64,000 nt of DNA from assembly GCA_040218145.1 (NCBI GenBank), contig JAVJQK010000005.1:1-64000 (forward strand), given 5' to 3'. The notes under the pieces are model-generated. The model had not been told where the DNA came from, searched no databases, and saw only the letters and a program-made list of their open reading frames with translations. Positions 9,019 through 12,226 of the stretch are shown here, in pieces; the first letter of the stretch is position 1, and every line of letters starts with the position of its first letter. The position numbers were made by a program, and so were the translations under genes. The stretch is from Sandaracinaceae bacterium (GTDB taxonomy: Bacteria; Myxococcota_A; Polyangia; Polyangiales; Sandaracinaceae).

Positions 9019-10422
9019 ATGGCCACCGTGTTCGTCGCCCTGCTCCTCGCCTGCGCTCTCGTCGCCTGTGGGCTCTTGGTCTGGCTCCTGCTGCAGGCGC
9101 GACAACAGCTCGCTCGGTATGCCCCCGTCCGCGACATCGACGAGTGGCGCCAGCAGGCCCACGCGGAGGTCGAGCAGCATCGAGCCGCCACTGTACATCA
9201 GCTCGCGCAGGCGCAATCCGAAGTGGCGATGCAGCAACACGCCCTCCATGAGCAGACGCAGAGTGCGCAGCACCAACTCGCGCAGCTCGGGCAGCAACTG
9301 ACGGGGGGACAGCAGCGTCTCTCTGCGCTCCAGGCCGAGCTGCGATCGGTGGAGGAAGAGCTCGAGTTCCAGTCGTTCGGGTTCTACCGGCCGCACTACA
9401 GCTTCACCGACTCGGAACAGTTCAGGGATGCCCTGCGCCAGGTGCGAGACGCGCAGAAGCAGCTCGTGAAGGCCAAGGGCGCCGCGCACTGCCCCAACGA
9501 CTGGACCGTGGACGGGAACCGCGCGAAGGGTCGGAAGATGATCAACCAGCAGATGAAGCTGATGCTGCGAGCCTTCAACGGCGAGTGCGACGCGGCGATC
9601 GCGAAGGTCCGCTACAACAACATCGCCAAGATGGAGGCCCGGGTCAGCAAGGCCTGCGAGGCCATCAACAAGCTTGGCGAGACGAAGCGCGTCTGGATCA
9701 CCGCCGACTACCTGAACCTCAAGCTGCATGAGCTCTACCTGACGCACGAGCACCATGAGGCGCTCCAGCGGGAGAAGGAAGAGCAGCGGCGCATCAAGGA
9801 CCAGATGCGGGAAGAACAGAAGGCGCAGAAGGAGATCGAGAAGGCGGAGTCGGAGGCGCTCAAGGAGGAGAAGCGCTACGAGGCGGCTCTCGAGCAAGCG
9901 CGCGCAGACCTCGCCAAAGCGAGCGGCGCGCAGCACGAGAGATTCGCCGGGTTGGTCAGCAAGCTCGAGAACGAGCTGAGAGAGGCGCTGGACCGGAAGG
10001 CGAAGGCGATCGCCAGAGCGCAGCTGACCCGGTCGGGTCACGTCTATGTCATCTCGAATCTCGGCTCCTTCGGGGAGGGCGTCTACAAGATCGGGATGAC
10101 GCGCCGTCTGGAGCCGCTCGTTCGCGTCAAGGAGCTGGGAGACGCATCGGTCCCCTTCAGCTTCGACGTCCACGCCATGATCTACAGCGAGGACGCACCC
10201 GCCCTGGAGCGCGCGCTGCACGTCGAGTTCGACGGCCGTCGCGTGAATCGAGTCAACACGCGGAAGGAGTTCTTCCGCGTGTCGTTGGCAGAGGTTCGCA
10301 AGGCGGTCGCCAAGCACCACGGCGTCATCACCTTCGTCACGGTGGCTGAGGCGGAGGAGTACTGGAAGACCGTCGCGATCACCAACGAGGACAGCGGGAT
10401 CGCCGCGGTGGCGGCGTCGTAG
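9019..10422 (+). CDS. membrane-anchored DUF4041 / GIY-YIG (T5orf172) protein
   Basis: The 467-residue product has an N-terminal transmembrane helix (residues 4-27), a Gln-rich coiled coil (30-120), a DUF4041-like segment (125-300, with FGFYRPHYSF near 120-130 and Glu/Lys-rich helices), and a C-terminal T5orf172/GIY-YIG nuclease-like domain (340-440). In that domain VYVISN and VYKIGMT form the two conserved strands, an Arg follows, and EFF lies near residue 417. The family is common in phages and plasmids; its role is not settled and may concern DNA processing or defence. GAAGGG lies upstream of the ATG as a ribosome site. It is convergent with the ATPase gene 48 bp away. Confidence 0.8.
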   Translation: MATVFVALLLACALVACGLLVWLLLQARQQLARYAPVRDIDEWRQQAHAEVEQHRAATVHQLAQAQSEVAMQQHALHEQTQSAQHQLAQLGQQLTGGQQRLSALQAELRSVEEELEFQSFGFYRPHYSFTDSEQFRDALRQVRDAQKQLVKAKGAAHCPNDWTVDGNRAKGRKMINQQMKLMLRAFNGECDAAIAKVRYNNIAKMEARVSKACEAINKLGETKRVWITADYLNLKLHELYLTHEHHEALQREKEEQRRIKDQMREEQKAQKEIEKAESEALKEEKRYEAALEQARADLAKASGAQHERFAGLVSKLENELREALDRKAKAIARAQLTRSGHVYVISNLGSFGEGVYKIGMTRRLEPLVRVKELGDASVPFSFDVHAMIYSEDAPALERALHVEFDGRRVNRVNTRKEFFRVSLAEVRKAVAKHHGVITFVTVAEAEEYWKTVAITNEDSGIAAVAAS

Positions 10423-10470: not shown

Positions 10471-11916
10471 TCATGGTGTTCCGAAGAACGCGTCCATGGT
10501 CACCGTGGTGAGCCCGAGGCGCTGGGCGTGCGCGTTGTTCTTCACGCCGTAGGTGGTGACCAGCGTGAGGAACACCGTCTTCCTCGTGCCGGTCGCCCGA
10601 CGGAACACCGCGCGCTTTCGCTCGAGCGCGTGGGCGTAGCCCTTGTCGACCACGTAGTCGGTCTCCGAGAACTTCATCTCGCATAGGTTGGTGCTGCGGT
10701 CGGCTCGATCGATGACCAGATCCACCTGCGCGCCTTCGTCGTCCGGATCCAAGGGGCGGTGTGACCAGGGGGCCTCTTCCGTTTCGACGGCGGCGATCCC
10801 CAGCGCGCGCTTGATGGACATGACGTGCTTCAGGCAGAGGCTCTCGAAGGCGAGGCCACTCCAAGCGCGGAAGCGAGGGCTCGCCCGCTTGCGCTGCCAA
10901 GCCCCCTCCCCGCGACCTCGATGCTTCTCGATCCAGGTGAGGTAGAAGAGGGAGTACTCGTCGGCCAAGCGGTAGACGGCGTCCCGCTGATCGTGGCCGA
11001 GCGGCGTGCTGCGCGCGATGAAGCCCGACTCCTCCAGCTCGTCGAGCACCTTCGTGGCCGTCCCACCCGAGACCATGCCCACGGCCTGCAGGAGCTCGCC
11101 CCGTGTGGTCCCCCGACGCCTCGCGGCGAGCGCGCGCACGACCGCTTCGTGACGCTCGGCTCGGTCGAACAGCGAGGCGTAGAGCTGCTCGAATTCGTCC
11201 CGTAGGAGTCCATCGCGGGTGAAGCACGCGCGCTCGATGGCCTGCGCCGCGGACTCGCCCGCCCTCGCTTGCTTCAGGTAGTGGGGCACTCCCCCGAAGG
11301 CCATGTAGAGCTCGAGCGTCTGGTAGTGCCCCAGGTCGACATCCCGTGAGCGAAGATACGCGTCGGTCTCTGCCAGCGTGAAGGGCTCCAGGCGGATCCG
11401 CCGGGTCACCCGGTTGTGGAGCCCGCCCCGTTGCTTGACCACCTTGCGGAGCATCCACGAGGCGCTCGATCCACAGATCACGACGAGCAGCCATTCCTGC
11501 GAAGAAGCCCAGCCGTTCCAGAAGTGCTCGAAGGCGGCGAGGAACCCGGAGCGACGCGTCGCGAGCCAGGGCAGCTCGTCGAGGAACACGACTCGCTTTC
11601 CGGCGCCAGCGGCCGGGCGTGAAGCCTTCAAGTGCGCCTCGAGGAGACGAAACGCGTCCGCCCAGCTGGCCGGCGTCGCGAGCGGGAGCCCCGTTCCGGT
11701 CGCCCTCCCGAGCGCGGTGGTGAAGGCGTCCAGCTGGGACTTCATGTCGCCGGCGTGCGAGCCAGTGAGCTCGAACGCGATGGCCTCGCCGAAGAACTCG
11801 CGGATCAGGAAAGTCTTGCCGATTCGTCGGCGACCGTAGACCGCGACGAGCTCCGGTTCGGCGGAGCGCATAGCCTCGCCCAGCAGGACGCGTTCGGCTC
11901 GACGGCCCACGAGCAT
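10471..11916 (-). CDS. DUF234-type ATPase with PD-(D/E)XK-like tail
   Basis: The 481-residue product belongs to the ATPase_2/DUF234 group of STAND-like P-loop proteins. Walker A is GRRRIGKT (about residues 28-35), Walker B is VVFLDELPWL (about 110-119) and a sensor-like ICGSS follows. A winged-helix region (about 255-320, LQAVGMVSGGTATKVLDEL) precedes the DUF234 domain, where QVDLVIDRADRSTNLCEMKF has the D...E-x-K layout of PD-(D/E)XK nucleases. The substrate is unknown; such proteins are frequent in archaea and mobile regions. The ATG at 11916 follows AAGGTG. The promoter region carries four copies of an AGCCACA motif, so regulation by a dedicated repressor, or autoregulation, is likely. Confidence 0.85.
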   Translation of the reverse strand: MLVGRRAERVLLGEAMRSAEPELVAVYGRRRIGKTFLIREFFGEAIAFELTGSHAGDMKSQLDAFTTALGRATGTGLPLATPASWADAFRLLEAHLKASRPAAGAGKRVVFLDELPWLATRRSGFLAAFEHFWNGWASSQEWLLVVICGSSASWMLRKVVKQRGGLHNRVTRRIRLEPFTLAETDAYLRSRDVDLGHYQTLELYMAFGGVPHYLKQARAGESAAQAIERACFTRDGLLRDEFEQLYASLFDRAERHEAVVRALAARRRGTTRGELLQAVGMVSGGTATKVLDELEESGFIARSTPLGHDQRDAVYRLADEYSLFYLTWIEKHRGRGEGAWQRKRASPRFRAWSGLAFESLCLKHVMSIKRALGIAAVETEEAPWSHRPLDPDDEGAQVDLVIDRADRSTNLCEMKFSETDYVVDKGYAHALERKRAVFRRATGTRKTVFLTLVTTYGVKNNAHAQRLGLTTVTMDAFFGTP

Positions 11917-11929
11917 GGTCACCTTATAC

Positions 11930-12016
11930 AGCCACAGCTCGCCCAATTCCAGAGTTGTGGCTGATTATAGTTTCCCTAACCCAGCCACATCGCGCCGTCC
12001 CAGCCACTTGTGGCTG
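11930..12016 (-). promoter_or_regulatory. promoter with repeated AGCCACA operator-like motif
   Basis: TATAAT is readable on the minus strand at 11964-11969, 47 bp in front of the ATPase start, in otherwise GC-rich DNA. No strong -35 is evident. Around it lie four AGCCACA/TGTGGCT words: 11930-11936, 11955-11962 (reverse), 11983-11989, and a perfect palindrome CAGCCAC-TT-GTGGCTG at 12001-12016. The copies flank the -10, as expected of repressor sites. Confidence 0.55.
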
Positions 12017-12155
12017 CGTATGATTGCCCAGAAAACGCCTCGATTACGCGTGGGAGCTGGCGCTCCTCTCGACCGAAGAGCCGTCGCGACCCACGACGCG
12101 CCGCCGCACCTGGCCCACGCTCTGCTTGCTGGCCGGATGCTCGCTCCAGACAATC

Positions 12156-12221
12156 GGGGACGATCCTCGTCATTCGTCGAGCTCGGACACAGGCGTTTGA
12201 CGAATGAACAGGATCGTCCCC
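12156..12221. repeat. palindromic repeat, full copy 4
   Basis: The left arm GGGGACGATCCTCGTC and the right arm GAACAGGATCGTCCCC pair through the outer and inner stems. The right inner arm GTTTGACGAATG matches copy 3. It ends 6 bp after the stop codon of the minus-strand gene at 12227, again a 3'-end position. Confidence 0.9.
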
Positions 12222-12226
12222 GATGA

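Follow-up and report, generated by a model that had tools for sequence, protein, structure and literature searches.

The stretch of DNA analyzed here (the window, 64,000 nucleotides from a Sandaracinaceae bacterium) carries on its minus strand, at 10471–11916, the gene of a 481-residue protein composed of an ATPase, a winged helix and a domain with a nuclease fold. The ATG at 11916 was taken as the start because the alignments with homologues begin near residue 10 of the longer reading, which starts with TTG. The protein matches over its full length (E = 5.1e-186, residues 2–478 of 481) the model PDLC04984, which represents PDC-S27, a single-gene phage-defence candidate of PADLOC. According to the accessible text of PMC12988326, PDC-S27 is an ATPase fused to a member of the PD-(D/E)XK superfamily. 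The original prediction had named the protein a DUF234 ATPase, a label that does not hold at the Pfam threshold: DUF234 (PF03008) gave no match to the window protein at E 0.001, reached only 16.7 and 12.9 bits in the homologues L004 and L005 against a cut-off of 22.5 and did not match L006 or L007, whereas ATPase_2 (PF01637) passes with 35.1 bits against a gathering cut-off of 33.2. No match was found in NCBIfam for four proteins of the window, or in PHROGs for the ATPase up to E 0.1.

The ATPase motifs G28-RRR-x-G33-K34-T35 and D113-E114 are invariant among 53 aligned sequences. The same is true of E358, Q397-x-D399 and E413-x-K415 in the C-terminal domain, for which these residues and the fold matches predict a PD-(D/E)XK-type nuclease fold (residues 347–478; 10483–10878, minus strand). 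Judged by the whole-protein profile, the intact ATPase motifs and this predicted domain, the protein is a member of PDC-S27. The structure model of the whole protein (mean pLDDT of 94.2) places a winged-helix domain at residues 253–317 (10966–11160, minus strand), in agreement with the matches to HTH families in the homologues L006 and L007. Its modelled recognition helix spans residues 285–296, with Ser283 (11068–11070) directly before it and Thr286 (11059–11061) as its second residue, and the wing loop between the strands 300–303 and 314–317 contains Arg311 (10984–10986), all three codons being on the minus strand. The best fold matches of residues 1–328 are the archaeal ATPases SSO1545 and PAB2304, followed by CED-4, plant NLRs and Orc1/Cdc6. 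Modelled alone (pLDDT of 95.2), the C-terminal domain matches EndoMS/NucS (Z of 9.4 and 9.2) and AF1548 (9.0), as well as FokI (7.7), McrC (7.5) and the Avs4 nuclease (6.0).

The gene at 9019–10422 on the plus strand, which converges on the ATPase gene, encodes a homologue of SNIPE/PD-lambda-1 with DUF4041 and GIY-YIG-type T5orf172 domains (PADLOC, E = 3.3e-172). PD-lambda-1, since renamed SNIPE, is presented in the accessible text of PMC13190303 as a membrane-bound nuclease that cleaves phage DNA on its entry. The position of a PDC-S27 gene beside such a homologue makes the locus a likely defence island.

Upstream of the ATPase gene lies an array of four 17-bp half-sites of roughly the form AG(T/A)TnTGGCnnnnTATA, which alternate in orientation and are spaced by 23 and 30 bp. 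Half-site 1, ACTTGTGGCTGCGTATG, is the farthest from the gene (12006–12022, plus strand) and is followed by half-site 2, CGATGTGGCTGGGTTAG (11976–11992, minus strand), half-site 3, AGTTGTGGCTGATTATA (11953–11969, plus strand), and half-site 4, AGCTGTGGCTGTATAAG (11923–11939, minus strand), which adjoins the start codon and whose final bases overlap, by eye, the likely ribosome-binding AAGG. The array spans 11923–12022, slightly more than the 11930–12016 of the original prediction, because the half-sites, detected by the grammar of the family, are set in the family register. Two blocks of about 22 bp repeat in it at exactly 53 bp. The TATA end of half-site 3 is, on the minus strand, the -10-like TATAAT at 11964–11969 (ATTATA on the plus strand), so that the array overlaps this element; a sigma-70 consensus scan found no full promoter match at the array. 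The features originally described, namely four copies of AGCCACA/TGTGGCT (exact copies at 11930 and 11983 on the plus strand and at 11956 and 12009 on the minus strand), the 16-bp palindrome CAGCCAC-TT-GTGGCTG (12001–12016) and the TATAAT within about 90 bp, are all present as described. The left arm of the palindrome is an additional half-site outside the family register, for which reason we rejected the palindrome as the conserved unit. Beyond the array, an imperfect REP-like hairpin repeat (…ATCGGGGACGATCCT … AGGATCGTCCCCGAT…) lies at 12153–12224; it has 66 matches in the host genome, counted on both strands, and several further matches occur in the window at about 5063, 5953, 7889, 28456, 28947, 34432, 43083 and 43219.

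It had been argued that such a density of repeats is unlikely to arise by chance. This argument proved weak, because some heptamer with at least four copies in 90 bp also turns up when the dinucleotides of the 64-kb window are shuffled (17 of 40 shuffles), and we did not accept density as sufficient evidence. Three other clusters of this kind exist in the real window, near 36.7, 37.5 and 61.2 kb, and the AGCCACA heptamer has seven matches in the window against a shuffle mean of 4.2, at least seven being reached in 15 of 100 shuffles. The CAGCCAC cluster at 11929, with five copies, is the sole five-copy cluster in the window. It is the geometry, with its copies at 53 bp, and the occurrence before homologous genes that mark the array as non-random.

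To our knowledge of the literature, searched without preprints and with few subscription papers, no such array has been reported. The set of homologues comprised 277 loci, 275 of them with an N-terminus and two with less than 100 bp of upstream sequence, and 234 remained after proteins at least 95% identical had been dropped (81 for discovery, 153 held out). A looser pass over 80 homologues from other genomes, which allowed spacings of 22–32 bp either way, revealed alternating half-sites spaced by 23 and 30–31 bp; the detector was thereafter fixed to accept only spacings of 22–25 and 29–32 bp, and within these limits the modes are 23 bp (plus then minus) and 30–31 bp (minus then plus). At a score of at least 13, a threshold picked after the controls had been viewed, an array was detected in 211 of the 234 upstream regions, compared with 2 of 702 gene-body windows, 2 of 234 shuffles that preserve single-base composition only and 11 of 196 upstream regions of neighboring ORFs. 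At a score of at least 16, the corresponding counts were 165 of 234, 0 of 702, 0 of 234 and 1 of 196. The remaining 23 homologues scored below 13, and L078 has no array. In a check free of this grammar, 45 of 83 upstream regions contained a perfect inverted repeat of at least 10, compared with 50 of 1660 shuffles and 18 of 830 windows from the same loci.

The grammar of the array is thus common to the family, while the letters of the half-sites vary between homologues, and relatives from the same order likewise keep the layout and differ in their letters. The consensus of 722 half-sites from 211 loci is roughly A-G-(T/A)-T-T-T-G-G-C-n-(A/G)-n-n-T-A-T-A, and the last half-site lies at a median of 22 bp from the projected start. 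Half-site 3 of the window nearly equals CGTTGTGGCTGATTATA of L112, the protein of which is 72% identical. The repeats of the window are therefore part of a family-wide system. When the motif was sought before homologues, its exact letters turned out to be absent from most of them and a cognate variant was found in the same place; to treat the absence of the exact motif as a refutation, as the original prediction advised, would have misled.

An array in front of an ATPase with archaeal Orc1/Cdc6 and ORC chains among its fold matches could also be an origin-, partition- or transposon-end-like set of sites on which an Orc1/Cdc6- or TnsC-like ATPase acts in the replication or movement of a small element. 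TnsC gave a weak sequence match (E = 0.02), and the gene is found on phages and plasmids. However, the array is an upstream feature only (at the score of 13, 75 of 81 upstream windows against 7 of 78 just downstream of the gene), the gene stands singly, without a fixed partner, both in the window and in the phage locus L339, and copies occur up to at least four per genome on chromosomal contigs with different arrays. We therefore consider a replication or transposition array highly improbable.

The question of which protein reads the array was approached through the mutual information, corrected for background, between each half-site base and about 465 protein columns. The covariation and prediction analyses used only loci with a score of at least 13, which left out 6 of the 81 discovery and 17 of the 153 held-out loci; an initial covariation run had left out L049, L078, L093 and L109, in which the register is not clear, and a few consensus half-sites, such as those of L007 and L246, are shifted by one base or inverted, which adds noise. 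Residue 311 pairs with base 5 (z of 8.7 in discovery and 7.8 held out), and residue 286 with base 10 (8.6 and 7.9) and base 11 (7.5 and 7.1). For base 7, residue 283 came second in discovery, below residue 384 (z of 4.0 against 4.7), and first in the held-out set (10.2). Trained on 75 loci, residues 311, 283 and 286 rank first among 465 columns in predicting bases 5, 7 and 10, respectively, of 136 held-out loci, with accuracies of 0.81, 0.63 and 0.49, compared with 0.66, 0.40 and 0.22 for the majority base and 0.62, 0.56 and 0.28 for the nearest neighbor by whole protein. For base 11, residue 286 ranks third and brings no gain over the majority base on the held-out loci (0.61 vs 0.60).

The pairings are specific in their letters. 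G at base 7 accompanies Ser or Thr at residue 283 in 106 of 116 loci and other residues in 8 of 95; A accompanies Asn283 in 30 of 41 (others, 10 of 170), and C or T accompanies Asp or Glu283 in 40 of 47 (others, 17 of 164). Likewise, A or G at base 5 goes with Arg311 (54 of 63 loci; others, 12 of 148), C at base 10 with Arg286 (23 of 26; others, 56 of 185) and T at base 10 with Thr286 (27 of 41; others, 15 of 170). All seven proteins with the Ser-Thr-Arg combination have TGGCT in their half-site, and L189, which shares this triad despite an identity of only 49% with the window protein, has the half-site ACTTGTGGCTGAATATA.

Raw mutual information is inflated because the sequences are related, and we therefore drew phylogenetically independent pairs on trees from which the winged helix had been left out. 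Residue 311 ranks first for base 5 both among all loci (105 pairs; rank 1 of 400, p = 6e-4) and among the held-out loci (68 pairs; rank 1 of 465, p = 8e-7). Held-out values for the other residues are weaker: residue 283 ranks 14th for base 7 (p = 0.016), and residue 286 ranks 32nd for base 10 (p = 0.05) and 68th for base 11 (p = 0.16), each of 465 columns. Among all loci, they rank 13th (283) and 17th and 63rd (286, bases 10 and 11) of 400, and residue 276 leads for bases 7 and 10. Between proteins 55–70% identical, residue 311 leads for base 5 and residue 286 for bases 10 and 11, with residue 283 outside the top five for base 7; between proteins 70–95% identical, none of the three is among the top columns. 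Phylogenetic control thus firmly supports only the pair of residue 311 and base 5. The reading of the array by the winged helix is firm through residue 311, and for residues 283 and 286 it draws on the held-out prediction and on their place in the model. As the half-site bases track winged-helix residues and can be predicted at held-out loci, the ATPase very probably binds the array in its own promoter, and as far as the sequences tell, the array and the winged helix of the effector itself evolve together in the PDC-S27 family. Covariation, held-out prediction and the model strongly support the original idea that the motif is read by the ATPase with its winged helix.

These data also bear on the possibility that the array is bound as an operator by a separate regulator whose gene lies elsewhere, with the ATPase gene merely lying downstream. 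Dedicated regulators bind most bacterial operators, and the ATPase itself is a putative repressor. However, a separate regulator would not explain why the half-site bases follow the winged-helix residues of the downstream protein to the point of predicting held-out loci, or why the array stays in front of this gene across many lineages and also in phages. Moreover, exact convergent or divergent pairs of the heptamer occur nowhere in the 11-Mb host genome except at the ATPase locus. A search with the whole array returned no second copy, the next match being 19 bp long (E = 0.6). With paired exact sites at a single locus, a large regulon in the host is unlikely, and we rejected a wider regulon on this ground. 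Taken together, a separate regulator is very unlikely.

An RNA interpretation, in which hairpins made by the inverted repeats in the 5′ leader control translation, has to be weighed as well. The RNA of the array folds better than its shuffles (z of −5.4 for the plus strand; for the minus strand, which is that of the gene, −3.5 over 114 nt and −1.7 over the 50 nt nearest the gene), and half-site 4 adjoins the start codon. Rfam had no match for the array up to E 1. Against this interpretation, palindromic protein sites fold just as well when treated as DNA (z of −4.6), a transcript that began at the TATAAT would lack the half of the array upstream of it, and base pairing predicts no covariation with residues of a recognition helix. 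We regard the chance that the repeats act as RNA as very slight indeed.

Within one genome, the letters of the array differ between paralogous copies. None of 105 within-genome paralogue pairs (109 in all, 4 of which fall outside the identity bins) differs by one base or less over half-site bases 3–13; since only about two such pairs would be expected from the pairs between genomes, we do not claim an active avoidance of cross-talk. At E ≤ 1e-80, PDC-S27 was found in 63 of 348 genomes of the order Chitinophagales, many of them with at least four matches. In the same 348 genomes, a search that started from the motif (TGGCN4TATA-N4-8-TATAN4GCCA) returned 36 places in 22 genomes, against five for the reversed control pattern. 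At the first locus of each genome, a full PDC-S27 gene lies within about 110 bp in 11 of the 22; the dyad stands beside PDC-S27 remnants only in L343 and L361, as found by tblastn, and beside a remnant recognized by eye, for which tblastn finds none, in L357. No recognizable gene was found at eight of the 22, and L341, L347, L355 and L359 show array-like sites with no recognizable gene close by. It is possible that the arrays of these seven named loci are relics of lost immune loci.

Relatives of PDC-S27 are also encoded at ten loci on viral contigs and in seven phage records. In the Wolbachia phage WO (L339), the gene is situated among head genes, and a doubled dyad array of similar plan lies upstream at 2390–2500 with two copies of ACCGCGGTATATAATGCTAACATACGCCGCGGT, the upper one different by one base; other viral relatives, such as L328 and L331, show no clear upstream array by eye. 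The host genome itself carries a second, distant PDC-S27-like gene (L018; contig C82, 33228–34304), upstream of which lies a 15-bp tandem array, TGGAAGTTCCACTGC, in five copies with a geometry unlike that of the window array. Among distant ATPase_2 relatives, repeated 8-mers exceed shuffles (p ≤ 0.01) in 13 of 31 upstream regions, or 12 of 30 distinct genes (L010 and L127 being one gene), compared with 2 of 93 gene-body windows. Because the repeats of these relatives have other geometries and periods, we do not extend the 53-bp grammar to them.

Considering these results together, we suggest, with a probability of roughly 0.78, that the ATPase gene has the repeats as its operator and that the ATPase itself binds them, most likely repressing its own gene. 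As would be expected of an autoregulated winged-helix operator, the inverted-repeat sites overlap the predicted promoter region of the gene. The sequence of the sites appears to be set by the DNA-reading residues that the gene itself encodes, firmly so under phylogenetic control only for residue 311 and base 5. Presumably two subunits per dyad would read the half-site, with wing residue 311 contacting base 5 and the start of the recognition helix contacting base 7 (residue 283) and bases 10–11 (residue 286). Since the four half-sites alternate with a period of 53 bp, about five helical turns, both dyads would face the same side of the DNA, and binding could therefore be cooperative. With the TATAAT inside half-site 3 and half-site 4 abutting the start, occupancy would block transcription or its start, and autorepression would most likely be its consequence. 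Repression may keep a potentially self-harmful nuclease scarce, and expression may rise once the protein leaves the promoter, for instance when it is recruited to invading DNA.

We infer repression rather than activation only from the overlap with the TATAAT. The sites flank the TATAAT on both sides, the sigma-70 scan is empty, and MalT and similar STAND-type regulators act as activators, so that self-binding might instead activate the gene, or switch with the ATP state, as a positive feedback of an immune gene. However, sites over a -10 element or abutting a start codon are typical positions for repression, the array of the window occupies both, and across the family it keeps the same place beside the start. 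Activation is hence an unlikely, if serious, alternative to repression. More doubtful still is the notion that the array, besides being an operator, is a parking place that holds an NLR-like ATPase-nuclease inactive, the promoter being a guarded self-marker. Subunits held on the chromosome would then be freed when infection strips, cuts or out-competes the host DNA, and would assemble and switch the nuclease on; with a private address for each paralogue, each would be controlled alone.

A cognate array of this kind would have several implications. That three operator bases can be linked to three residues offers an inexpensive and direct way in: the DNA site of each protein could be predicted, swapped and built into reporters that reveal when the system is turned on. 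It suggests that control of the gene lies with the immune effector rather than with a separate regulator, and that each paralogue of a genome has an address of its own. Operators left by lost genes may mark past immune loci. PDC-S27 is among the more frequent immune candidates that await characterisation, the survey in PMC12988326 counting 8,065 instances (3,503 archaeal and 4,562 bacterial).

The accessible text of that survey describes no operator, winged helix or autoregulation for PDC-S27; it states that validation is pending for most such defence candidates, and the immunity of PDC-S27 is not validated there. Among proteins of known structure, the archaeal Walker-type ATPases SSO1545 (PDB 2fna; Z of 19.4, rmsd of 3.1 over 296 residues) and PAB2304 (PDB 2qen; Z of 19.6, rmsd of 3.4 over 301 residues) have the same combination of ATPase and winged helix, but their aligned chains of 350–352 residues are without the C-terminal nuclease domain of the window protein. 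We know of no operator for either. Self-regulating defence systems include those with WYL/BrxR-type repressors, the C proteins of restriction-modification systems and autoregulated antitoxins. Like the window system, they have an inverted-repeat operator before a defence gene and are autoregulated, as is probably the case here, whereas their DNA-binding part is a separate protein and that of the window system is a predicted domain of the ATPase-nuclease. In being a signal ATPase that would bind DNA, the window protein also resembles the STAND regulators MalT and IniR. According to the accessible text of PMC5760070, the ATPase domain of IniR has been likened to SSO1545, and IniR binds the iniBAC promoter; it acts on an operon other than its own, binding DNA with a C-terminal domain of a different kind, and no nuclease domain is described for it there, unlike the nuclease fold predicted for the window protein. 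Compared with these systems, PDC-S27 appears to be a self-regulating, NLR/Orc-like ATPase that carries a nuclease fold.
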